Part shown: in pieces, positions 1 through 15,155 of the stretch
How the letters are laid out: each line of letters starts with the position of its first letter
Position numbering within the stretch: position 1 is the stretch's first letter
DNA from: a virus
Strand: one strand, 5' to 3'
DNA length: 20,351 nucleotides
Virus record (IMG/VR): IMGVR_UViG_3300028287_000039
Location: 1-20,351 of that record
Translations under genes and position numbers: made by a program
The notes under the pieces: generated by a model
What the model was told of the DNA's origin: nothing
What the model saw: the letters and a program-made list of their open reading frames with translations, nothing else
Databases searched by the model: none

Positions 1-27
1 AAAGTATTTATGAAGGAAGGTCTGTGA
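1..27 (+). CDS. 3' end of an unidentified upstream gene (partial)
   Basis: An open frame runs from the left edge and ends with a TGA at 25-27; the visible residues are KVFMKEGL. Its stop overlaps the GTG start of the next gene (GTGA, 24-27), the usual arrangement of translationally coupled phage genes, which is the only reason to call it coding. Nothing can be said about the product. The alternative is that these bases are leader sequence of the following gene. Confidence 0.4.
   Translation, partial: KVFMKEGL
13..20 (+). promoter_or_regulatory. Ribosome binding site deciding the GTG start at 24
   Basis: The purine run AAGGAAGG lies a few bases before GTG at 24. The 67-codon frame has no ATG near its beginning, so this Shine-Dalgarno match is what supports a GTG start there. 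It lies inside the end of the upstream frame, as expected for coupled translation. Confidence 0.55.
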
Positions 28-227
28 AACTAGAACAAGAAGCGAAAGCACACATAGAAGGTACACGCATTAAGTTCTACGATGAGTTATCTCAACACGC
101 TGAGCAGCTTGAGAAGTGCATCAAGAAGAATCTGCTACTTACGCATGAGAAGGATAAAGCCTTAGAGCATTTAACTGCGTGTCAGCTATGGGCAAAACAC
201 TGTGCTAAACGACACGGTATACGATAA
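24..227 (+). CDS. Small helical-hairpin protein, putative Acb2/Tad1-like cyclic-nucleotide sponge
   Basis: A 67-residue protein with a GTG start, preceded by AAGGAAGG and overlapping the stop of an upstream frame. It is predicted to be almost wholly helical: helix one about residues 16-35, a short turn ending HEK at 41-43, and helix two about 44-63 with L47, L50, W56, A57 and R63. From memory, small phage proteins of the Acb2/Tad1 hairpin family carry a tyrosine-led first helix, then REK, a spaced ALxxL, then a WA pair and a terminal Arg. This protein matches that pattern without gaps (Y19, A26, L29, I33, E42-K43, A46-L47, L50, W56-A57, R63). Family members bind cyclic oligonucleotide or gcADPR signals and so block CBASS or Thoeris defence. 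It lies convergent to the late operon, outside the structural genes, as accessory genes often do. The pattern match is by eye; a generic coiled-coil protein is the alternative. Confidence 0.5.
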   Translation: MKLEQEAKAHIEGTRIKFYDELSQHAEQLEKCIKKNLLLTHEKDKALEHLTACQLWAKHCAKRHGIR

Positions 228-232
228 AGAAA

Positions 233-254
233 AGGGGAGCTTAGTGGCTCCCCT
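233..254. terminator. Bidirectional stem-loop terminator between convergent genes
   Basis: An 8-bp perfect stem, AGGGGAGC (233-240) with GCTCCCCT (247-254), closes a 6-base loop TTAGTG. It sits in the 37-base gap between the plus-strand small gene (stop at 225-227) and the minus-strand late operon (stop at 265-267). Read on the minus strand it is followed by TTTTCTTT, a good intrinsic-terminator tail. On the plus strand the tail is weaker (TCTCTCGTTTGTT). It most likely ends the late transcript and may also stop the rightward operon. Confidence 0.75.
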
Positions 255-264
255 CTCTCGTTTG

Positions 265-3200
265 TTAGTCTGCAGCTAACGTATTAGCTGTCCCTTTAGA
301 CACTTGCATCATTCTACGTCTTGCAAGGTTTTCTTGGTCAACTATTAAGCGATACAAGTTAGTCTCGTATATACCTTTTTCTTCAGGTGTGAAATCATCA
401 TTACCTTTGATAAACTCTACTGCATCCTCTATAGACATATCCTCTGTTTCAAAGACACGGTCCAAGCTTTCAGAATAATACCCACGATTCTCATTCCAGA
501 CCATCTGAGCTAGTTTATTTTCAGCGTCAGACATAGCCTTGTATTCACCTTTGATGTACAGCTGATAGTCTTTACGTAACTCAGGCTCAGCAGAAGCATA
601 ACGTTTAAGTTGGTCTTCTACAACCTCACGATACAAAGACTCAAACCCTTTAAATTGTTTAGGCAGCATTAGACGTTTCTTTTCATCAGAGTAGTTTTGA
701 TACGTCTCCGTTTCCATGTACTGCTCCATGTCACGAGCCATACGTCCCTGAGCAAACTGTTGAAATCCTGTCTCAAGAAGTCTGTTCTTCTCTCTGTACG
801 GATTGTACATTTTAAAAGGATCAAGCTGTAGGCGAGTAATCTCACGCTCTAGTGCGTTCTTAGGTGGTCTACCCACGAGTCCAGTAAGCTGCTTGTCAAG
901 AGGATCAAGAATACGAAGAGGTCCGTCACCTAGTACGTTCATGCGAATAGCGTCATATTTAAGATCGTTACCGAATGCGTCTTGAGCATAGTCACTTTGG
1001 AACTGTGTACGTGTAGCTGAAGAGAAGAACTCTAGGTACTTCATAACGCCATCACTATCAATGTTTGTACCGAACATCTCATTAAAGGTGTTAGCCATTT
1101 CGTCAGTATTAAAGTCAGGCAACTGACGGGTCGCACGTTGGTAAAGATTCATTGGCACGTTCTTACCATACATATCAAGCATAGAGAATGTAGGATCTTC
1201 TGTGTTAGGGAGGTAAGCACTACGAGGATCGAACTGTCCGTAGAAATCTTTAAACACAGCCAGAGGGTAAGTTATGGGTATAACAGTATCAGCCATTGAT
1301 CTGTTAAACTTATCCCAGCCCTGCCCATCAAGCCCTGCCATAACAGAATCAACAAAACCTGTATCAACACGGAACTCAGATGCACCAAGTATCTTAGCTA
1401 GATCAGCACGTACTTCCTTGCCAGGCTTGGTGGGCATACCCTCTAAGCGACGAGCAATGTAGTCTGTTGTATAGGCATGTGCAGTAAGTGGCCCCATAGC
1501 TGATTGACCGTCATATGTACGGTTGTTGTTAGGGTCAACTACCTCATTCCAAGACGTACCATCATAAATCTTATCTTGATATACACTCAGTAGACCTAAA
1601 GTACCTAAGGCACCTGTAGCCATTCTACCAAACTCAGCATCGTCTACACGCTTGCCTGCTGCAATACGTCTAGCTACAGTAAAGCCTGTGTAGTCTGACA
1701 CAAACTTAGCCTGAGATGCAAGGTAGCGAGGGAATGGGATTGCCAGTGTAAGACCGTAGTTGTGAATAGTGCGGATAGCACTGGCTGCAGCCTTATTCAT
1801 ACCACTGGCGTCTTTACCACCGAACCTACGCTGGAATGTAAATGCTAGTGACTCATCTAGTGCTGTCTGCAGTATATCATCAGGCAAATCCTGTGTACGT
1901 CCCTTGCGCATCATATCCATAACGTCAGTGCCAAGCTGTTCGTTGCCCAGTTGCTTAAGTTGACGGTCAATACTTCCAGCAATAACAGCACGTTTAACTA
2001 CACGATCTGACATAGTGTTCAGAACGTTCATAGCTGCACCTACTTTAGAGAACTTGTTGCTTCCTGTAATAGCTTCCTCAGCAATAGCTGCATCATAGAA
2101 TACCTTTTGCATACGCTTAGGTGCGCTTTCATGAAGCAGACTCGTTAAAGCCTCAGCAACGTAGGTATCACCTGTGAGATACTTGAGGTGATCTGCTGAA
2201 CCTCTTAGGGTAGATCCTGCTGATGCTTCTGCATTAGGACGTACAGCACGAACAGCTGCAGTGGATAACTGATCCACAAAATCAATACCTGTCATAGCTA
2301 CAGAGAAGATGTTGTTGCGCATTGTAGTAGCAGGCTGAGATGTCATAAACATACGTCTAGCATTCTCAAGGTCTTTCAGGTTGTTAATCACAACAGAAGA
2401 CATACCCTGCTTAACATCCTTCATGACCTTCATTTCATCAGATGTAACAGGAGACATGCCTGCCTCAAACAGTGAGTCTACACGCTTAGCGTATACTTTA
2501 TCTTTAGCTGTACGAGAGCTACGCAAGATACGAGCAGCATCAGATACTTCTGAGGCGTATGCTACAGATAGTTGCTCACGAGACAGGCTGTACTTCTCTC
2601 TAATGGTATCTATGACAGCAAGAGCTTTACCATCGCCACTACTGATACTATCAGCAATGACCTCAGTAATACGCTTACCTTGTTTAATCATATCATCTGT
2701 GACACCCATCTCTTCTGCTACTTCATAGCCTGCAGCAGCAATACGCTGGATAGTGTCTACATCAAAACCTCCAATGATACCGTCTGGTAAATCAGAACTA
2801 AAAATGTCTTCACGTACAATCTTACCTTCTTCTACCATACGTGGATCAATAGCACGTAACATGTTGTTGGATACGTATTTAAGAAGTGCCTTACCCTCTT
2901 TAGTCTTCTTAGCTTTGGTTGACAACTTCTTAGCTGATTCTCTGGCTGCAGCACGGCGTACATTCATCGCCTCTTCGCCAGCCTGCCCTGCCTCTACTAA
3001 CTTCTTAGATGCACGATTAGCAACAGTACGCCCTGCGCCATACAAGGCTAAACCAGGTGCGGCACCAACGACTCCTGACACAGCAGCCTGACTTAAGCTT
3101 ATATCACGCTCCTCACCAATACTCTTACCGCCAATTTGACGGATACGCTGATTAGCTAAGTCTGTTAAGGCGGAGATACTACCATCAGCAGCTGCAGTAA

Positions 3201-3735
3201 TGCCTGCCTTCTTAAGGGAGTTCATAGCAGCACCACGTAGCATAGAAGCTGACACAGCTTTACCTGCACCTTTAGCTAACTCAGCACCTGCTTTTATAGC
3301 TACAGCGCCTGTACCTGCAGTAAATAGACCTGCAGCAGCAGCGGCCATAGTTGTCGGGGATGATAATACAGCACCAGCGTAGTCCTGAAACTTCTCACCC
3401 CCACGGTCAAACCATCCCTCACCCTTAGCGTTATCAAAAGCAAACATCAAACGACTAAACGCCTCACGTTCTTGTTTTGGTGTATTGTTATCAGCAATGA
3501 ACGAGTAGTCTTTGTACATTGTACGCTCATTGACTGTCTGGTAGCGCATATGCTCTAGGACTTTATCTGTGATGTCAGAAGCAGACATGTCCTTTAAGTC
3601 ATCATCTGTGTACTGTAGGCGGTTACTCTTAAGAAAGGTTATGGAGTCCTTAAGGAAGGCACTATCAGTACGCAAGTCAGACAGTTTTTTGTCTTTCATT
3701 GCCTCTGTAGTGTAGTAGTTGTTTGTATCAGCCAT
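265..3735 (-). CDS. Large internal virion / ejection protein (1156 aa)
   Basis: The last gene of the late operon, in the position and size range of the biggest T7-like ejection protein (T7 gp16 is about 1300 aa). The N-terminal 110 residues are charged. Two Ala/Gly-rich, weakly hydrophobic segments follow at about 120-155 and 213-236 (with AAPGLALYGAGR), a composition common in ejection proteins that insert into the host envelope. A SQPATTMRN motif at 466-474 and a hydrophobic patch to about 497 precede a long mixed-helical region with an IPFPRYLASQ motif in its middle. The C-terminal 250 residues are charged and helical. I see no transglycosylase motif, unlike T7 gp16; that activity sits in a separate protein at 6564-7745. 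The start ATG is 9 bases after the previous stop. Homology is inferred from size, composition and context; the family name is not certain. Confidence 0.65.
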   Translation of the reverse strand: MADTNNYYTTEAMKDKKLSDLRTDSAFLKDSITFLKSNRLQYTDDDLKDMSASDITDKVLEHMRYQTVNERTMYKDYSFIADNNTPKQEREAFSRLMFAFDNAKGEGWFDRGGEKFQDYAGAVLSSPTTMAAAAAGLFTAGTGAVAIKAGAELAKGAGKAVSASMLRGAAMNSLKKAGITAAADGSISALTDLANQRIRQIGGKSIGEERDISLSQAAVSGVVGAAPGLALYGAGRTVANRASKKLVEAGQAGEEAMNVRRAAARESAKKLSTKAKKTKEGKALLKYVSNNMLRAIDPRMVEEGKIVREDIFSSDLPDGIIGGFDVDTIQRIAAAGYEVAEEMGVTDDMIKQGKRITEVIADSISSGDGKALAVIDTIREKYSLSREQLSVAYASEVSDAARILRSSRTAKDKVYAKRVDSLFEAGMSPVTSDEMKVMKDVKQGMSSVVINNLKDLENARRMFMTSQPATTMRNNIFSVAMTGIDFVDQLSTAAVRAVRPNAEASAGSTLRGSADHLKYLTGDTYVAEALTSLLHESAPKRMQKVFYDAAIAEEAITGSNKFSKVGAAMNVLNTMSDRVVKRAVIAGSIDRQLKQLGNEQLGTDVMDMMRKGRTQDLPDDILQTALDESLAFTFQRRFGGKDASGMNKAAASAIRTIHNYGLTLAIPFPRYLASQAKFVSDYTGFTVARRIAAGKRVDDAEFGRMATGALGTLGLLSVYQDKIYDGTSWNEVVDPNNNRTYDGQSAMGPLTAHAYTTDYIARRLEGMPTKPGKEVRADLAKILGASEFRVDTGFVDSVMAGLDGQGWDKFNRSMADTVIPITYPLAVFKDFYGQFDPRSAYLPNTEDPTFSMLDMYGKNVPMNLYQRATRQLPDFNTDEMANTFNEMFGTNIDSDGVMKYLEFFSSATRTQFQSDYAQDAFGNDLKYDAIRMNVLGDGPLRILDPLDKQLTGLVGRPPKNALEREITRLQLDPFKMYNPYREKNRLLETGFQQFAQGRMARDMEQYMETETYQNYSDEKKRLMLPKQFKGFESLYREVVEDQLKRYASAEPELRKDYQLYIKGEYKAMSDAENKLAQMVWNENRGYYSESLDRVFETEDMSIEDAVEFIKGNDDFTPEEKGIYETNLYRLIVDQENLARRRMMQVSKGTANTLAAD

Positions 3736-6564: not shown

Positions 6565-7745
6565 TAGTTACGTGCCTTGGGTCTCAAAGAAGTAACTACG
6601 GCTGTATCTTCTGTTTTAATAGGTGCTAAAGATTTAAACATAGGCTCTAAGTCTTTCTTTACCGTATGAATACCCTGACCGTATTTATCAGTACCGTCTG
6701 CTTTTGCTACAGAGGCCCATATGTTAGCTATCTTATTTTGAAAAGAGTCTTGACTTCTCTTACCGTTAATATACGAGTTATACCCTGCTTCCTTTAGTGC
6801 TAAGAAGCCTATTTCCTCTTGTATTGCTGGGGTATATACTGTATCTTCTGTTAACCCTAGTTTATCAGCCCAAGAATCTTTTTGCGGATTGGCTGCTGTT
6901 CCGTTTTCACCAAACAGAGAAGTTTTTATTACTTGGTACTTACCTACAGCACTTGTTCCTTTAGTTGTGCCTTTTACCTTACCTTTAGTTGCGGCTATCA
7001 GCTTTCTTTGATACGCTTCAAGTTCTTTCATTGTCATTTCAGTCACAGGTTTATCTGGTGCTAGAGCACTACCGTAACCATAAACCATATCATATTCTGT
7101 AGATCCTATTCCATACTTATTTTGGGCTTTTAGTTTTTTAGGGTCTGCCCCTTCTCCAAGAGCTATTCTATCAAGTAAGTCTTGAGTAGGCCCATCATCC
7201 AGAACACCCATATAGTTATCGTCATCAGGGAGCCCCATCTCATCGTCTGTTAACCATGACCTAGCCTTAGGGCGTAAAGGCTTCTCAGGAGGTACAGGAC
7301 TCATAAGACCAGTGCTCTCAGTCTCTGCAGTTACAGGTGCAGACTCCTCTACATCTTTAGCGGTGTCGGTAACAAGCTCATAAGGACGAGCAACAGGGCG
7401 AGTAATAGTGCCTTCTGGTGGTTCTTTACGATATGCTTCACTTCCACCCTCCACTAATGATTGTGTAATACCTGCTGCTTCTCTTTGCTGAGCATTGAGT
7501 AGAGCAGACTCTCTTGCTAGAGTTTCCATAGTAGGAGCAAGCTCTTCACGTGCCTTATTTACCTTCTCCTCAGAAGCTGTCCACCAATCAGCAAAAAACT
7601 TCATAACAGAAGAAGTACTATCCTCTGCTTTAGGTTTAGATGCAATACCTGTCTGTTCAGATTTAGGCTTGTATGCCTCCTCCTGAAAGTACCGCAGTAT
7701 CTCTAAAGGATCCGTTGTCTTAGGGGGTTCTGTAAAGCCTGCCAT
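6564..7745 (-). CDS. Virion protein with C-terminal lambda-R-like muramidase (GH104-type) domain
   Basis: A 393-residue protein in two parts. Residues 1-185 are proline- and acid-rich, mostly disordered, with a helical stretch at 50-95. Residues 188-375 follow the pattern of the lambda endolysin R family (lytic transglycosylase, GH104): LLDRIALGEG with the expected catalytic glutamate at E198; TSAVGKYQ (264-271), matching the STGAGRYQ motif; DKLGL (294-298); TPAIQEE; and NIWAS (341-345). Such domains cleave the MurNAc-GlcNAc bond of peptidoglycan. LRPKAR occurs twice (157-162 and 387-392), and LTDDEMGLP (165-173) is shared with the 603-aa protein. There is no signal peptide. The long disordered arm and the position among ejection genes suggest a virion-carried enzyme opening the wall during entry, but lysis through the adjacent membrane protein is also possible. 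The gene overlaps both neighbours by one base. Confidence 0.7.
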   Translation of the reverse strand: MAGFTEPPKTTDPLEILRYFQEEAYKPKSEQTGIASKPKAEDSTSSVMKFFADWWTASEEKVNKAREELAPTMETLARESALLNAQQREAAGITQSLVEGGSEAYRKEPPEGTITRPVARPYELVTDTAKDVEESAPVTAETESTGLMSPVPPEKPLRPKARSWLTDDEMGLPDDDNYMGVLDDGPTQDLLDRIALGEGADPKKLKAQNKYGIGSTEYDMVYGYGSALAPDKPVTEMTMKELEAYQRKLIAATKGKVKGTTKGTSAVGKYQVIKTSLFGENGTAANPQKDSWADKLGLTEDTVYTPAIQEEIGFLALKEAGYNSYINGKRSQDSFQNKIANIWASVAKADGTDKYGQGIHTVKKDLEPMFKSLAPIKTEDTAVVTSLRPKARN

Positions 7746-10700
7746 TATCCTATTGCTCCAAAGGTCTTCTTAAGTAAGTAATCCGCAGCTACAGCAGCTA
7801 TTGAACCTGCTGCACTGCCTTTAGCTGTAGCAGCCGCACTGTCTCTTTGTATCTCTGACACTAGAAGATTGTTCTCTCTAGTCAAAGCACTCTCTGCTGA
7901 ACGCCAAGCGTAGTCAAGTGCGTCACGTTCCTGCTGTAGGATATTGTTGTACGTAGTCTCAGTTAAGCTGTTAGCTTGTTGTGCAGCATCACGGTTAGAT
8001 TGGTTCTGTGCAGCGTTGTCCATTGTAGTAATAGCTTGCTCCCACTGAGCATTAGCTTGCTCAACTACAAGTGCGTTGTTAGCGTTGAACTGATCCCGTG
8101 CGTTCTGTTGTGCTGCGTTGAATTGCTCTATAGCGTTAGCCTCGCCAGCGTTAAAGCGGTTCATAGCATTAGTTTGCTCTTGGTTCTGCAAAGCGACTTG
8201 TGTAGTCAAGTTATCGTAGAACTGATTAGTCTGGTTCTCACTTGCAGCATTAAACTGCTTAGCAGCATTCTCAGCAGCCTGATCCGACAGCAGAGCTTGT
8301 TGTGTAGCCTGAGCTTTGAACATAGCCATTTGCTGTTCATTATTCAAGTTAGTCATGTCTAACTCAAGGAATGCTTTAGCGTTTTGAGCAGCAGCCTGTT
8401 GACGATTATTGAGATTCGCCATATCCATGCCAGCATACGTAGCTGCATTCTGTAGAGTAGCAGCCATGTTAGCATCTAGCTCAGCAAGACCGATAGTCTG
8501 CATCATCTTAGAGTTATGCAAAGCATTCTGCTGTTGTGCAGTAAACGTAATGTTAGCAGCATCAGCATACCGTGCAGCATTCTGAATAGATACTTGCTGT
8601 TCGTTACTCAGTACCTGAGCCTGCAGAGATGCAGCTAAGTTAGCGTTTGTGATATACGCCTGTGACTTACTGCTAAGATTAGCTAGGTTAATCTGTAACT
8701 GATTAGCATTATTCTGCATGGAAGCTTGTTGCTTGTTATTCAGATTAATGTTTGCTTGCTCAGCATAACGTGCAGCTACAGCAATGTTAGACTGTTGCTG
8801 ATTGCTAAGGTTCTGTCCCTGGAGTGTAGCACGTATTTGTGCATTAGCAATCTCTGCAGACTGGCGGTTAGACAAGTTAGTCTCTTGTAGTGAAAATGCC
8901 TGTGCGCTACGTTGGAGGTTAGCCTGTTGTTCATTGTTGAGGTTCTGAAGAGCTAGACCTTGCTGTGCTGCAGCATTAGACAGAGCAACCTGTTGACGGT
9001 TATTCAGGTTCTGCATACCCATCTGTGCAAAGGTGTTAGCATCCTGCTGCGCAATAGGTAGAGCAGATTCCATAGCAGCCTGTAAGATGGCTGCACTAGC
9101 CATACTAGAAGCCCCTAATCCACGAGAGGCCATTACAGCGTTAGCAGCCCGCATAGCCCCAGCCGCCCAAGCAGGAGTACCGTCATCAAAGTCTTTCATC
9201 AACTGCGACAACTGACCTTCTACAGTAGCAAGAGCCTTTACTTCGCCTTCCATAGCAAGGGCAAGAGTACCATTATCTACAGAGAACTTAGCTAGTTTAG
9301 CAGCTACAGGGTTAGCTTCTGGGCTAAGACCAGCGTCTGTAATAGCTTTAGCTTGAGCCATCTGATCTTCTGCTATTAGTGCGGCAGAAGGTAACTCTTC
9401 AGGTTGAACCTGAGAAGTAGCCGCTACCGCTTCAAGTAGAGCGTCAGACTGTGCAATGTTAGCTTCAATAGCCTTTAGGTTTTTACCTTTAGCTTCTGCT
9501 AACTGTTGCTTAGTTACTTCAAGGTTTACGTTCTCATTTACTTTATTGATGCGGTTTTCCGCTACAGTGTTGACCTCAGAAGCTAGAGCGTCTTCTGATA
9601 CAACACCCTGCTCACCTAGAAATGTAGAGCCAGCGGAGAGACCTGCTGCTGTAGCAGCTTTAGCCCGTTCTAGTTCTGCCTTAGCCTTATCTGTAATCGT
9701 AGTAGCATCATAAGTAGCTGCAGCCTTAGCTTTAGGAGCTACAACATCAGGGGCAGTATCTGCAGTAGTGACAGTAGCTTGTTCTGCTGTTTCATCAGCT
9801 TGCCCTGTACCTTCAGCCATCTTACCTGCTGCACGTTGTTCGTCACTTACAGTAACTACATCAGCTTTAGTAACCATAGACATAGGGTCTTCTAGCGTAG
9901 TAGCGCGCATCTCTGTAGTGCTAGGCATACCTACACGTTCTACGTTAGTTTGTGCTTGAGACAAAGCTGCCTTAGCATTAGTTACTTTAACTTGCTGTTC
10001 ATCAATCAAGCCTTGAATAACATCACGCTGAGGGTCATCTGCAGCCATATTAGCAAGCTGTGTAGTGTACTGCTGTAGGAGGTTTTGCTCTGTAGAGAGG
10101 TTACTCTGTGCCGTATCTAGGTTAGCACGTGTTTGCTCTGGTGATACTGTGGCTTGTTCAGCGGAGTACGTCTTATACTGGTCTAGCTGTTGTTGATACT
10201 GTGCAGCTGCTGCGTCTACCTGTTCTTGAGTACCTATAGAACCAGCAGCTTTAAATGAAGCAGATAAAGCGTTTGCACGTCCTTGGGCGTAGTTAATGTT
10301 ACGGTGCCTAGTATCTATTGAAGTACCATCTGGGTATACTATACTGTAAAAGCTACCCTTCTTAACTAACGTATAGTTATCTGGGTTTTCCTTAATAGTA
10401 GTATTAGCTACATTAGTATCTACGGTAGATTTAGCCCAAGTCTTGTCAGCCTCTAAGTTCAAGTTTACACCAGTAGTACCCTCATTCCATTTAGGCTCTT
10501 CAAAGGCAGCATCAATAGCAGAGGCACTATCAGTGTATATATTTTCTGGTGCAGTAGGTAGACCCTGTGATGGATCGTAGAAACCACCAGCGTCAGTACC
10601 TTGAGATACAGTACCACGACCTACACCTACTTTACCTGCCTGTAAAGCATCATCTGACGTGATCTTTCCGTCTTTGTTAAAGTCATACTGCAGGTCTACA

Positions 10701-11254
10701 GGAGAGGCTCCCGTAGTCATCTTCATAATATCCTGTAGGGTTTGGTTTGTTATATCACCTGAGTACAGAGAAGGAAGTTCTACAGGCTGTCGAGGCATTA
10801 CAGGCTTATATGATACATCATCATTATAACCTGGCTGAAACACTTCTTGCCCTGTAGTATAAGTTGGGCCTTGTTGCCCTGCACCCATGTCAAACCCACC
10901 AGTAGTGTTAGGCGTAGTAGTAGCTACACCGTACTGTTCAGGAAAGTTCTTCTGTCTATTAGATAACTGAAAAGGTGTTAAGTTTTTACCTGAAACAGGA
11001 TCGTATGTCTGTTTGTTCCAAGCAGCAGTACCTTTTTCAGGGAGACCCCCTTGGTTGTAACCCTGCTTTTTAGCCATGCCACCAGCTGCCATACCAATAC
11101 GCTTCTGCGCTAGTTCAGCCATCTTACCAACACGTGCTGCAGCACCAGGTTGAGATGCTAAGAACTTAGCCTGCTCATCAGCCTGCATACCCTGCATCTC
11201 AGGTATAATCTTACCCATCTGTTCAGGAGTGAAACCTGCAAATCGTTTAGCCAT
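7745..11254 (-). CDS. Internal virion protein with long 22-residue helical repeat (1169 aa)
   Basis: A very large Ala/Gln/Asn-rich protein. Residues 1-60 (FTPEQMGKIIPEMQGMQ, then RVGKMAELAQKRIGMAAGG) resemble the start of internal virion proteins I remember from marine phages. Residues 60-180 are Gly/Pro/Thr-rich and flexible. Residues 191-202 form an EF-hand/dockerin-like loop (DFNKDGKITSDD). A small folded segment lies at 285-340 and predicted coiled coils at 345-440 and 515-610. From 749 to 990 there are eleven consecutive 22-residue units centred on NLNNxQQ. These continue into 11-residue phenylalanine-spaced repeats (FNAxxxNxxxQ) to about 1067. The end is amphipathic with a small Ala/Gly-rich segment at 1140-1160. 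There is no catalytic motif. The long helical rod would suit a core or ejection-channel protein. Its stop and the next ATG form a TAATG overlap. Confidence 0.65.
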   Translation of the reverse strand: MAKRFAGFTPEQMGKIIPEMQGMQADEQAKFLASQPGAAARVGKMAELAQKRIGMAAGGMAKKQGYNQGGLPEKGTAAWNKQTYDPVSGKNLTPFQLSNRQKNFPEQYGVATTTPNTTGGFDMGAGQQGPTYTTGQEVFQPGYNDDVSYKPVMPRQPVELPSLYSGDITNQTLQDIMKMTTGASPVDLQYDFNKDGKITSDDALQAGKVGVGRGTVSQGTDAGGFYDPSQGLPTAPENIYTDSASAIDAAFEEPKWNEGTTGVNLNLEADKTWAKSTVDTNVANTTIKENPDNYTLVKKGSFYSIVYPDGTSIDTRHRNINYAQGRANALSASFKAAGSIGTQEQVDAAAAQYQQQLDQYKTYSAEQATVSPEQTRANLDTAQSNLSTEQNLLQQYTTQLANMAADDPQRDVIQGLIDEQQVKVTNAKAALSQAQTNVERVGMPSTTEMRATTLEDPMSMVTKADVVTVSDEQRAAGKMAEGTGQADETAEQATVTTADTAPDVVAPKAKAAATYDATTITDKAKAELERAKAATAAGLSAGSTFLGEQGVVSEDALASEVNTVAENRINKVNENVNLEVTKQQLAEAKGKNLKAIEANIAQSDALLEAVAATSQVQPEELPSAALIAEDQMAQAKAITDAGLSPEANPVAAKLAKFSVDNGTLALAMEGEVKALATVEGQLSQLMKDFDDGTPAWAAGAMRAANAVMASRGLGASSMASAAILQAAMESALPIAQQDANTFAQMGMQNLNNRQQVALSNAAAQQGLALQNLNNEQQANLQRSAQAFSLQETNLSNRQSAEIANAQIRATLQGQNLSNQQQSNIAVAARYAEQANINLNNKQQASMQNNANQLQINLANLSSKSQAYITNANLAASLQAQVLSNEQQVSIQNAARYADAANITFTAQQQNALHNSKMMQTIGLAELDANMAATLQNAATYAGMDMANLNNRQQAAAQNAKAFLELDMTNLNNEQQMAMFKAQATQQALLSDQAAENAAKQFNAASENQTNQFYDNLTTQVALQNQEQTNAMNRFNAGEANAIEQFNAAQQNARDQFNANNALVVEQANAQWEQAITTMDNAAQNQSNRDAAQQANSLTETTYNNILQQERDALDYAWRSAESALTRENNLLVSEIQRDSAAATAKGSAAGSIAAVAADYLLKKTFGAIG
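8285..9010 (-). repeat. Eleven 66-bp units coding for a 22-residue helical repeat
   Basis: Units start at residues 749, 771, 793, 815, 837, 859, 881, 903, 925, 947 and 969 of the 1169-aa protein, with no insertions or deletions. The core is NLNN(R/E/K)QQ followed by Ala/Asn-rich positions; units 8 and 9 are the most divergent (TFTAQQ, ELDANM). A 22-residue period is two hendecads, which suits one long helix in a nearly straight coiled coil. At DNA level the copies are well diverged, so this is old, selected periodicity. Confidence 0.85.
10649..10684 (-). other. EF-hand/dockerin-like calcium-binding loop in the virion protein
   Basis: These codons encode DFNKDGKITSDD (residues 191-202). Asp/Asn occupy positions 1, 3 and 5, Gly position 6, Ile position 8 and Asp position 12, exactly the canonical 12-residue calcium loop, followed by ALQAGK as in dockerin-type loops. 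Only a single loop is seen. Confidence 0.6.
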
Positions 11255-11558: not shown

Positions 11559-14500
11559 TTAAACAACCCGTACTTTGAGGTTCTGCGCAGCGTTAGATGT
11601 TACCCTGACTGTAGTGCTATCGGGGAAATCGTAGTCGTAATCAGTCCCCAGAATTGCACCCTTGTTCAAACTCTCAGCATCGTAGTTGATAGACACACCA
11701 TCTGAGCTTGGAACATCTGACGAAGCAGAACCCAAGTATAAGCCGATCATCAAGTCCAAGCTATCACCCAACGTGTAGTGGTTGGGGTCTGTGACAGCCT
11801 CTAGCTGAGTTTTGTCCATGCGGTTAGGTGCTACTTCAGTCAGTGCTTGCTGAAGTGCATATAGCTCAGAGTTGGTTGTTGAGTTAGCCCAAGTTGTTGA
11901 TGTTGTGTATCCTACAGAACCAATGTCGTATTCACTTACATCATTTCCTTGTTCGCCAAAAACAAACATCTTACTTCCGTCTGATTTAAAAGAGATAGCC
12001 TTTGGATAAATCTCCTCAGTAGCTACACTAAAACTTTGAGTATAAGAGGCTGTAGATACATCCCATGCGGTAGTTAGCGTATACTCATATGCATTGTTAT
12101 TTTGATCCCCAAGATGGAACATCTTAAGACCATCAGGCTTAAAGAAGATACCACCGACATCAGTGTCTTGAGAGCTAAAACCAAAGGTCTGAACGTATGA
12201 TGCAGTGGATACATCCCAAGCGGTACTCAAGGTATACTCATTTACATCATCCCCAGTAGCGCCAGCAACATACATTTTAAGTCCATCAGCCCTAAAAAAT
12301 AAACCGCTAGGATTTGTTTCTTGACCGCTTACAGAAAAACTCTGACTATACGAGGCTGTAGACACATCCCAAGCTGTACTTAAGTTATACTCATTTACAT
12401 CGTCTCCGCTTTTACCGCAAAGATACATTTTTGTACCATCTGTCTTAAAAAACAAACCTGAAGACGCTGTTTCTTGACCACTTATATCTTTGCTGTTGGT
12501 ACTATACACAGAAGTACTTACATCCCACGCAGTGCTTAAATTATATTCGTATACGGTATGAGTACTAATAGATACCATATACATCTTCGTACCATCAGGC
12601 TTGAAAAAACCAGTCCTCATAGAACTAGCTTGAGAAGTAAAACTAAAGTTTTTATTATTAAATACTGCCGTAGATATGTCCCAAGCGTTAGCAACACTGA
12701 TTGCACTATTATACTGCCATGTGCCGCCGTTATCCCGTACAATCGGACGTACACCATCAGCCTCTTTAATAACCGACCAAGTGGTGCGATCATCAGTGGA
12801 CACAGCGTAATAAGCTGCACCAGCACCAGCAATATCGTCTGTGGTCATACTGTTAATGTCAGTCCAGTATTCGGTGTCAATCTGGCCGCCAGCGTTGGTG
12901 ATGGAGGGGATGTAGCCAGTAGCTGATACAAAAGTGCCTAAGTTGTATTCATATACTTGGTTATAATCATCCCCAACCATATACATTTTGACGCCGTCTG
13001 GGTGAAAAAATATATTGTTAGGGGATCCATCTTGAGAAGCTACGCTAAGCAGTGTGCTGTACGAAGCTGTTGACACGTCCCAAGCCGCACCTAAAGAATA
13101 CTCATTTATTTCATTGCCGGCTTGCCCACAGACGTACATCTTTTTGCCGTCCGGCTTAAAGAACAAACCACGGGGCGTCGAATCCTGACTCCCTACATAA
13201 AACCGTGTGCTGTACGAAGCTGTTGACACGTCCCAAGCCGTGCTGAGACTCCATGCGTTTACATACGCATAATTAAGCCCAAGGTAATACATTGTTGTCC
13301 CGTCTGGGTGAAAGAAAATAGAAAAAGGATTTGCATCTTGGCCTGTACCCGACCCGCCTACATTTAAAGTTTGATTGCTGTAAGAAGCGGTCGATATATC
13401 CCAAGCAGTGCTTAAACTGTAAACGTATACTGAGTTTCCAGTATCCCCCATTATAAACATTTTGAGGCCGTCAGGCTTAAAGAAAACATCTCTTGGAAAT
13501 GAATCTTGACTGGATACACTAAAGTTTTGGCTGTAGACTGACGAAGATACGTCCCAAGCCGTCGATAAATTATATTCGTTTACGTCATCGCCTGAAGTGC
13601 CAGTCACAAACATTTTGAGGCCGTCAGGCTTGAAGAAGATGCCTTGTGGGGCAGTTTCTTGGGGATTTACATAAAAAAGTGTTGTGTATACTGCCGTAGA
13701 AAGATCCCAAGTATTTTCGGCTGCGCTACTCATCTCAAGGCCATCGGTAGCATTTGCAGTAACGGCGGTCATTGACCAATCGCCAGCGGCAATAGTGCTA
13801 CTGTCGGTAAATGCTGTTGTTTCAACGTAAGACCCATCGGTAGCAGTCAATACCACAGCGCCGCCATTGCCTTCAATGGTTTTACCTATGTCTGAAGATG
13901 CGAAGGAGCCTGTGCCGAGGATTAGGGTTTGAGTGAGGTCTAGGTCATATTCGTGTACGTTACTACTACCCTGACCAGTAACGTACATTTTAGTGCCATC
14001 AGGCTTGAAGAAGAGACCATGGGGTGCAACATCTTGATAAGCTACATAAAAGTTCTGACTGTAAGATGCTGTAGATACATCCCAAGCTGTACTTAGGCTG
14101 TACTCATTTACGTAATCTCCAGAGTACCCAAGAATATACATTTTAGTGCCGTCAGGCTTAAAGAACACGCAGGTTGGATTACCCTCTTGGCTACCAACAT
14201 TAAAGTTTTGACTATAAGATGCAGTAGAAATATCCCAAGCGGTACTTAAGTCATATTCGTTTATATCATTGCCAGCATCCCCAAGAATATACATTTTAGT
14301 GCCGTCAGGCTTAAAGAACATGCCGCTTGGATTAGACTCTTGGCTACCAACACTGAAGTTTTGACTATAGGAAGCAGTAGATACATTCCAAGCTGTGCTT
14401 AGGTTGTATTCGTTTATATCATTGCCAGCATCCCCAACAATATACATCTTAGTACCGTCAGGCTTAAAGAACATATCGTTTGGGTTTGTGTCCTGAGAAC

Positions 14501-15155
14501 CTATATAAAATCTCTGAAGGAAGGATGCTGTAGAAACATCCCAAGCTGTGCTTAAGTCGTATTCATTTACGTCATCTCCACTCCAACCAATAACATACAT
14601 TTTAGTGCCATCGGTCTTGAAGAAGACACCTGTTGAAGAACTCTCTTGAGAACCTATATAAAAGCTCTGAAGGAAGGATGCAGTAGAGATATCCCAGCCT
14701 TCACTGAATGGCGTCAGCGTCGTATCATAAGCAGTATCCAGGCGATCATAGTTTGCACCACTAGATGCAACATCCCACGCACCTTTGCTGATTATACCAG
14801 TTTGCGGCACTTCTTTAGTAACAGAAACAACAGGCGCTGGCGACAAGGCAGACGACAGAGCAATGCTTGCTGTTTCACCAGAAGCAAAAGACTTGGTTAA
14901 ACTACCCGCAGTTACGCTAATACTATCCAACTGTGTTTGGATGCTGCTGGTTACACCGCTGAGATAGTTGATCTCCTGTGTAGTCGCAACAGCACCATCA
15001 AGTTTGTTAAGGTCATCAACAGTAGCTGTAACACCGTCTAGGGTATTCAACTCAGCAGCAGTAGCAGTTATAGCTGTACCATCAAGGGTAAGAGTGTTCA
15101 CCGTAGCATTTCGGTTACTGTCAATAACTGTATTACCTGAAACTTTAATAGCCAT
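11559..15155 (-). CDS. Giant tail adhesin with 15 beta-propeller-type repeats (1198 aa)
   Basis: Residues 1-75 are a phage-fibre stem (TAAELNTLDGVTATVDDLNKLDG), probably the trimeric attachment to the tail. Then come fifteen repeats of about 51 residues in three blocks of five (about 152-414, 482-741 and 823-1080). The typical unit is Y-SQNF-V-SQ, FFKPDGTKMY, a G-x-GD turn, then VNEYxLSTAWDVSTAS. The first block is spaced exactly 51 residues at FF(K/R)(P/T)DG; one step in block two is 56 and one in block three is 52. Spacer one (415-481) has GTGSFASSDIGKTIEGNGG, and spacer two (742-822) has DDRTTWSVIKEADGVRPIVR. The C-terminus, 1085-1198, carries MDKTQLEAVTDPNHYTLGDS. Such PDGTKMY repeats are expected to form propeller blades, usually binding glycans or proteins. 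The gene follows the fibre gene by 18 bases and has an AAGGA ribosome site. A role in adsorption and host range is inferred. Confidence 0.75.
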   Translation of the reverse strand: MAIKVSGNTVIDSNRNATVNTLTLDGTAITATAAELNTLDGVTATVDDLNKLDGAVATTQEINYLSGVTSSIQTQLDSISVTAGSLTKSFASGETASIALSSALSPAPVVSVTKEVPQTGIISKGAWDVASSGANYDRLDTAYDTTLTPFSEGWDISTASFLQSFYIGSQESSSTGVFFKTDGTKMYVIGWSGDDVNEYDLSTAWDVSTASFLQRFYIGSQDTNPNDMFFKPDGTKMYIVGDAGNDINEYNLSTAWNVSTASYSQNFSVGSQESNPSGMFFKPDGTKMYILGDAGNDINEYDLSTAWDISTASYSQNFNVGSQEGNPTCVFFKPDGTKMYILGYSGDYVNEYSLSTAWDVSTASYSQNFYVAYQDVAPHGLFFKPDGTKMYVTGQGSSNVHEYDLDLTQTLILGTGSFASSDIGKTIEGNGGAVVLTATDGSYVETTAFTDSSTIAAGDWSMTAVTANATDGLEMSSAAENTWDLSTAVYTTLFYVNPQETAPQGIFFKPDGLKMFVTGTSGDDVNEYNLSTAWDVSSSVYSQNFSVSSQDSFPRDVFFKPDGLKMFIMGDTGNSVYVYSLSTAWDISTASYSNQTLNVGGSGTGQDANPFSIFFHPDGTTMYYLGLNYAYVNAWSLSTAWDVSTASYSTRFYVGSQDSTPRGLFFKPDGKKMYVCGQAGNEINEYSLGAAWDVSTASYSTLLSVASQDGSPNNIFFHPDGVKMYMVGDDYNQVYEYNLGTFVSATGYIPSITNAGGQIDTEYWTDINSMTTDDIAGAGAAYYAVSTDDRTTWSVIKEADGVRPIVRDNGGTWQYNSAISVANAWDISTAVFNNKNFSFTSQASSMRTGFFKPDGTKMYMVSISTHTVYEYNLSTAWDVSTSVYSTNSKDISGQETASSGLFFKTDGTKMYLCGKSGDDVNEYNLSTAWDVSTASYSQSFSVSGQETNPSGLFFRADGLKMYVAGATGDDVNEYTLSTAWDVSTASYVQTFGFSSQDTDVGGIFFKPDGLKMFHLGDQNNNAYEYTLTTAWDVSTASYTQSFSVATEEIYPKAISFKSDGSKMFVFGEQGNDVSEYDIGSVGYTTSTTWANSTTNSELYALQQALTEVAPNRMDKTQLEAVTDPNHYTLGDSLDLMIGLYLGSASSDVPSSDGVSINYDAESLNKGAILGTDYDYDFPDSTTVRVTSNAAQNLKVRVV
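11916..12689 (-). repeat. Propeller repeat block C, five units of about 153 bp
   Basis: It encodes residues 823-1080. The landmarks are at 850, 902, 953, 1004 and 1055, so steps are 52, 51, 51 and 51. The first and last units are the most divergent (VSISTHTVYEY and ISFKSDGSKMF), as expected for blades at the ends of a closed ring or array. Confidence 0.88.
12933..13712 (-). repeat. Propeller repeat block B, five units of about 153 bp
   Basis: It encodes residues 482-741. The landmarks are FF at 507, 558, 614, 665 and 716, so steps are 51, 56, 51 and 51; the third unit carries a five-residue insertion (SGTGQ region). Two copies of an identical 36-base segment lie exactly 153 bases apart (13052-13087 and 13205-13240). 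Some units replace KPDG by HPDG. Confidence 0.88.
13914..14702 (-). repeat. Propeller repeat block A, five 153-bp units
   Basis: It encodes residues 152-414 of the 1198-aa adhesin. The FF(K)PDG landmark recurs at residues 178, 229, 280, 331 and 382, exactly 51 residues apart. Units 2, 3 and 4 are strikingly similar at DNA level across the segment encoding GDAGNDINEY and FFKPDGTKMYI, which suggests recent duplication or gene conversion. Confidence 0.9.

Follow-up and report, generated by a model that had tools for sequence, protein, structure and literature searches.

Acb2 of phage T4 (Vs.4, PDB 7UQ2) and of Pseudomonas phages (p26, PDB 8H2J/8IXZ) are sponges that counteract CBASS. Substitutions in T4 Acb2 prevent Panoptes activation (Y8A), weaken binding (F82C) or reduce the affinity (T68M) (PMC12657218, PMC12657230). 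The C-terminal hairpin of Tad1 (Thoeris anti-defence 1, PDB 7UAV/7UAW) falls in the same Pfam domain, and the N-terminal beta-sheet of Tad1 helps to form the gcADPR pocket (PMC12043709). A short form is represented by 'Acb2 homolog 43' (PDB 9ptq), a 76-aa hairpin with six chains in the entry, of which no published account was found in the literature searched.

The DNA studied here, referred to as the window, comprises the 20,351 bases of a virus record and encodes a capsid protein that has 85.6% identity with its counterpart in Roseobacter phage CRP-2 and 55.5% with the one in Puniceispirillum phage HMO-2011. By this identity and by the arrangement of early and late genes, which also matches, the window belongs to an HMO-2011-type podovirus genome, in agreement with the marine podovirus-like genome surmised in an earlier note on the same sequence. 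Phages of this type infect SAR116 and Roseobacter RCA bacteria, which are among the commonest in the ocean; to our knowledge, little is known of their dealings with host immunity.

The hairpin gene and its surroundings

The earlier note had described an ORF for a 67-aa protein beside the late operon. It was present as described, with a GTG start, and is a real gene (Table 1). Coupling of a PhoH-like gene to the hairpin gene by a GTGA or ATGA overlap was also seen in the IMG/VR locus L012, in CRP-603 and in CRP-2, whereas in CRP-207 the gene upstream of the hairpin encodes endonuclease VII instead of a PhoH-like protein. Farther upstream in the relatives, genes are found for endonuclease I, MazG or another NTP pyrophosphohydrolase, ribonucleotide reductase and glutaredoxin.

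Table 1. Positions of the hairpin gene, its parts and its neighbours in the window, and of tagged genes occupying the same slot in other phages
Feature	Position	Strand	Remarks
CDS, 67 aa, GTG start	24..227	+	divergent helical hairpin of Acb2/Tad1 type, tagged N-terminally with LEQEA; closes the early/middle operon
GTGA overlap (start GTG 24-26, TGA 25-27 ending the upstream gene)	24..27	+	suggests translational coupling
Codons for residues 3-10, LEQEAKAH tag	30..53	+	consensus LE[QK]EAxx[F/H]; E4, E6 and A7 invariant
Hairpin domain, residues 15-65	66..218	+	AlphaFold and HHalign
Allele-exchange tract relative to IMG/VR contig 3300038299_000020 (L007)	104..235	+	64-66% identity; flanks 98-100%
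Terminator-like hairpin between two convergent operons	230..257	both strands scored	RNA fold z = -3.0
Large late gene, 1156 aa, convergent	265..3735	-	last gene of the leftward late operon; neighbour that marks the slot
YAG protein, CRP-13 gp34	L189:2175-2426		LEQEA/LEEEA tag, operon-end slot
YAG protein, CRP-9 gp35	L192:1327-1575		LEQEA/LEEEA tag, operon-end slot
MazG, HMO-2011 (phage1322_21)	L193:3387-3770		LEQEA/LEEEA tag, operon-end slot
MazG, CRP-345 gp39	L191:4494-4856		LEQEA/LEEEA tag, operon-end slot

Two other proteins of the window, both encoded on the minus strand, are rich in repeats. In the one of 1198 aa (11559-15155) a unit of about 51 aa with the pattern PDGTKMYxLG...STAWDVSTASYSQ recurs many times in degenerate form (period 153 bp); it is probably a propeller-like repeat protein of the tail or a fibre. 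The one of 1169 aa (7745-11254) has many repeats of the NLNNRQQ/NLNNEQQ type in its second half.

Scans of IMG/VR for the hairpin gene yielded 40 loci, and 77 after a second scan, with hairpin identities of 67-99% in about 38 loci and of 28-43% in about 35 further loci. Among cultured phages the gene is carried, at an unchanged location, by the three roseophages CRP-603, CRP-2 and CRP-207; a profile search of the whole records did not find it in CRP-1, 3, 9, 13, 212, 235, 345 and 738 or in HMO-2011. As it is absent from these nine relatives, the hairpin gene is accessory, and the idea that it is a core gene of HMO-2011-type phages was rejected, given that nine of the 12 cultured genomes checked do not have it. 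In bacterial genomes a pattern scan found no relative of the hairpin, which leaves a cellular origin without evidence.

Throughout the hairpin gene pairwise dN is far below dS, indicating purifying selection. Residues 1-22 change slowest (dN 0-0.06, with dS often at least 0.3), and in a 38-row alignment E4, E6, A7, F18, L50, W56 and G65 are invariant, so that the peak of conservation lies in the N-terminal tag region and not in the usual hairpin signature. Diversifying selection was considered and rejected because of the low dN; the differences between alleles look like the result of recombination. Within 4 kb of late genes, the window and the IMG/VR contig listed in Table 1 agree at 98-100% of positions over most of the length. 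Their hairpin genes are identical in the first 80 nt and only 64-66% identical from about 104 to 200, which means that the tag and the first 26 residues are common to both and that the 3' two thirds of the gene has been swapped. The pattern would fit an exchange of the body behind a retained tag. This is the one clear exchange pair, and a second case (L026 versus L033/L034) is weaker. The exchange tract may reflect module shuffling, the spot being the border between the early and the late module.

Relationship with the Acb2/Tad1 hairpins

The earlier note had recommended a profile search to verify its assignment of the protein to the Acb2/Tad1 family. For the window protein alone this search was negative, no match being found in Pfam, PHROGs or NCBIfam, and for its relatives it was weakly positive. 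These matched PF24729 (Acb2_Tad1_hairpin) with E-values from 2.5e-4 to 0.04, the best at 21.6 bits and thus under the curated Pfam cut-off of 27 bits; in CRP-603 and CRP-207 the hairpin gene was the sole match to this model in 54 kb. They also matched phrog_1454 (E 4.4e-6 to 0.02), a family that finds T4 Vs.4, i.e. Acb2 (7e-4), and the hairpin of phage phiCB2047-B (3e-8) as well. Three other names that appeared in family searches with the window protein, YwhD, DUF6435 and NblD, were dismissed as chance matches.

Independent profiles were then compared with the marine loci. A first set was built from the hairpins of Streptomyces, Gordonia, Mycobacterium, Microbacterium, Arthrobacter and Paenibacillus phages and of one Silvanigrella phage, together with PDB fragments of 'Acb2 homolog 43' and Tad1, all marine sequences being excluded. 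When 3,978 frames from the marine loci were searched with these profiles, all matches listed were the hairpin gene (best E 1.9e-7). A second set, consisting of 67 IMG/VR hairpins close to gp51 of Gordonia phage Remus, gave the same outcome (best E 1.2e-5). In HHalign the window family matched two sets of short hairpins with probabilities of 96.1% and 94.6% and the Vs.4 type with 82-85%. Among 33 conserved small-ORF families of these loci it reached 96.4% for the short hairpins and 84.9% for the Vs.4 type, with the runner-up at 0.5% and 1.1%, respectively; as all HHalign figures are single pairwise comparisons, it is these background families and not the E-values that carry the argument. The alignment with the short hairpins covers 51 columns and is ungapped, pairing HEK with REK, ALxxL with ALTxL, WA with WAN and R63 with the arginine of IAR. 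It reproduces the gap-free alignment that had been made by eye. Searches of PDB sequences were less informative: an early family profile returned noise only, a wider one ranked Vs.4 (7UQ2) first at a non-significant E of 0.73, and the relative L073 alone found Tad1 at rank 4 (E 0.85).

The window protein is predicted with high confidence to fold as a two-helix hairpin. The AlphaFold model, based on the 38-row alignment, has helices at residues 2-36 and 41-64 separated by a turn at 37-40, with a mean pLDDT of 95.1; it consists entirely of helix and contains no N-terminal beta-sheet domain like that of Tad1. The non-hairpin fold that the earlier note had named as speaking against its proposal was thus not obtained. 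When BFVD was searched with this model by Foldseek, 15 named Acb2/Tad1 hairpin proteins were present among the best 22 matches, with individually weak E-values (0.1-1.6) and Foldseek probabilities of 0.82-1.00. The top match, at 39% identity, is presumably the orthologue from a CRP phage. A control search with a different small helical protein of the same phages returned no Acb2/Tad1 names. The PDB gave no significant fold match, only generic helical hairpins with Foldseek E-values above 1, and the solved Acb2 structure 7UQ2 scored Z 7.2 against the model, inside the noise of helical bundles; matches in the PDB are uninformative because two-helix folds are commonplace.

Taken together, the window protein is very probably a distant homologue of the Acb2/Tad1 hairpin superfamily. 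Since it has no match itself and its relatives do not exceed 21.6 bits, it is not called a member of PF24729 and is described as a distant homologue or sister clade.

Residues of the ligand site

In an alignment anchored on the common tryptophan (W76 in T4, W56 in the window), T68 of T4 Acb2 corresponds to E48 and F82 to K62. The presumed place of Y8, 15 residues before that of K23, is occupied by the non-aromatic Lys8, in a region that is not securely alignable. The Tyr-led first helix of the earlier note did not hold up: Tyr19 is an internal residue of helix 1, shows no conservation across the family and is not the counterpart of the ligand tyrosine Y8. Judged by these positions, the known pocket of T4 Acb2 (Y8, T68, F82) appears not to be kept in the window protein, so that a ligand, if there is any, should bind differently. 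L073 retains the threonine of ALTKL, so that the loss may have been gradual.

A common tag in the operon-end slot

The N-terminus of the hairpin family reads M-x-LE[QK]EA-x-x-[H/F]. In CRP-13 and CRP-9, which are without the hairpin, the slot holds an unrelated protein with KKKTLEQEAQEF followed by a body with YFAGCALSGLIASGKFLRSDEIVDEA, referred to as YAG. In HMO-2011 and CRP-345 the slot gene encodes a MazG with the N-termini MNKLEQEASNWMKERY and MKLEEEAKKYMENKYE, respectively. A tag was likewise predicted upstream of the annotated MazG start in CRP-1 (gp30, L190:4113-4493) and was found there: MNKLKEEAEQFLKEKYN is gained if translation begins at an in-frame ATG 51 nt before that start, which is probably annotated too late.

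A six-frame search of CRP-603, CRP-2, CRP-13, HMO-2011 and CRP-345 detected the motif once per genome, in the slot gene. Five occurrences were observed against 0.007 in shuffled proteins, for a motif that was picked after the data had been seen. MKLEQEA codons were present at 91 places in IMG/VR, and the 64 start-like frames among them comprised 41 hairpins, 23 MazG and no other protein. A scan with LEQEAQEF gave at least 112 YAG, at least five MazG and one evident chance match among the 120 matches listed. At loci with enough sequence, the tagged gene lay tail to tail with a large ORF in 30 of 39 hairpins, 14 of 15 MazG and all 73 YAG. HHalign of the hairpin and YAG families aligned the 15-residue tag and nothing beyond it. 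Among the carriers the tag codons differ synonymously, which favours a constraint on the protein over a signal in the DNA. The YAG loci were partly fetched with a pattern that contained the tag, by which the tag invariance observed in them is inflated. No published account of a LEQEA motif in phages was found in the literature searched.

The YAG family itself (L198-L277) displays an AT-hook-like PRGRPPKKK, followed by TLEQEAQEF and a predicted body of two helices. Against Pfam it gave nothing above cut-off (AT-hook at 14.9 bits, 17.4 being needed), its model was moderately confident, and a fold search returned no named match.

Possible function

The position of the gene in the early operon, its accessory nature, the recombining alleles, the homology with the hairpins and the existence of an equally small relative solved with six chains (9PTQ) fit a protein that binds a host nucleotide signal stoichiometrically; an accessory and recombining gene is also what would be expected of counter-defence. 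Our favoured reading is that the hairpin protein is a putative sponge for a nucleotide-type signal of host antiphage defence, which we hold to be about as likely as not. Such a protein would form an Acb2-like oligomer, with a pocket remodelled for a nucleotide signal and independent of the tyrosine pocket of T4, and in the infected cell the LEQEA tag would guide the hairpin, like the other cargo proteins of the slot, to one shared partner. Of the sponge proposed by the earlier note, the distant homology is thus borne out by the profiles with their controls, by AlphaFold and by Foldseek, whereas the sponge function is unsupported, Y8, T68 and F82 not being kept. Also counting against the favoured reading are the lack of a family match for the window protein itself, the scores of its relatives below the Pfam cut-off, the PDB fold matches at noise level, the concentration of conservation in the tag region and selection that is purifying instead of diversifying.

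The missing pocket residues together with the tag imply that either the ligand or the job has changed. In the latter case the protein might be a former sponge that has become a structural or regulatory oligomer in the middle-phase metabolism of the phage, recruited via the tag and tuning functions encoded nearby, for instance those of ribonucleotide reductase, the PhoH-like protein or MazG. The lost T4 ligand residues agree with such a role, and so do the maximum of conservation in the N-terminal 22 residues, the genes of nucleotide metabolism that always adjoin the hairpin gene and the presence of the same tag on MazG, a nucleotide pyrophosphohydrolase. Other HMO-2011-type phages possess these metabolic genes and no hairpin, however, which indicates that the pathway does not require it, and we regard the metabolic role as a tentative possibility. 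It is improbable that the tag is itself the active part, acting as an inhibitory or hijacking peptide on a protein of the host or the phage, with the hairpin, MazG and YAG bodies mainly as its scaffolds. This reading could explain why one slot holds three unrelated bodies with a nearly invariant LEQEA, why each of five genomes has exactly one motif and why the hairpin-YAG comparison is confined to the tag, but the bodies are well conserved too and MazG keeps its own enzymatic motif. It is very improbable, finally, that a common kind of two-helix phage protein resembles Acb2/Tad1 here by chance. The lack of a family match for the window protein alone, the abundance of two-helix hairpins and the nonspecific PDB matches could suggest it; against this, three hairpin profiles single out the gene among 3,978 frames and 33 families, and Foldseek with viral models finds mainly Acb2/Tad1 hairpins and none for the control protein.

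The putative sponge can be extended to a broader proposal, of which we are rather doubtful as a whole: HMO-2011-type marine phages would possess a dedicated cargo slot in which unrelated proteins are swapped behind a LEQEA docking tag for a common partner, and the hairpin would be a sponge with a new pocket. That a relative of the sponges lacks the ligand residues known from them points to either a novel signal or a changed job, and the common tag makes the slot a place to seek further host-takeover proteins and predicts a single partner for them.

Comparison with known systems

With the Acb2 proteins of T4 and Pseudomonas phage the window protein has in common that it is a phage protein with a helical hairpin and a terminal A-xxxL-xxxx-W-A motif (AKTKLKEASMWACRA versus KALEHLTACQLWAKHCA). 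It differs from them in lacking the N-terminal segment with the ligand tyrosine, T68, F82 and the long insert between the helices, in the presence of the LEQEA tag and in a PF24729 score below the cut-off. The short hairpins of actinophages and Paenibacillus phages and 9PTQ belong to the same size class, and their REK-ALAxTKLEEAMFWANAAIAR aligns without gaps with HEK-DKALEHLTACQLWAKHCAKR of the window. The actinophage proteins keep an F-x-FHPAT N-terminus and VR before helix 1, where the window protein has the tag helix instead. Tad1 is echoed weakly in Foldseek and phmmer, and its N-terminal beta-sheet has no counterpart in the window protein.

A marine roseophage hairpin is known in SUFG_00048 of Sulfitobacter phage phiCB2047-B (L084:3575-4141), which the A2 profile finds at 2.2e-7 and which bridges both families. 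In this protein, unlike that of the window, the hairpin is fused to a RyR domain and the LEQEA tag is absent; its C-terminal hairpin exceeds the Pfam cut-off, and the whole is possibly a two-domain nucleotide binder. The MazG of HMO-2011 and CRP-345 and the small protein of CRP-13 and CRP-9 share the slot and the N-terminal tag with the window hairpin, whereas their bodies, a nucleotide pyrophosphohydrolase and a small helical protein, are unrelated to it.
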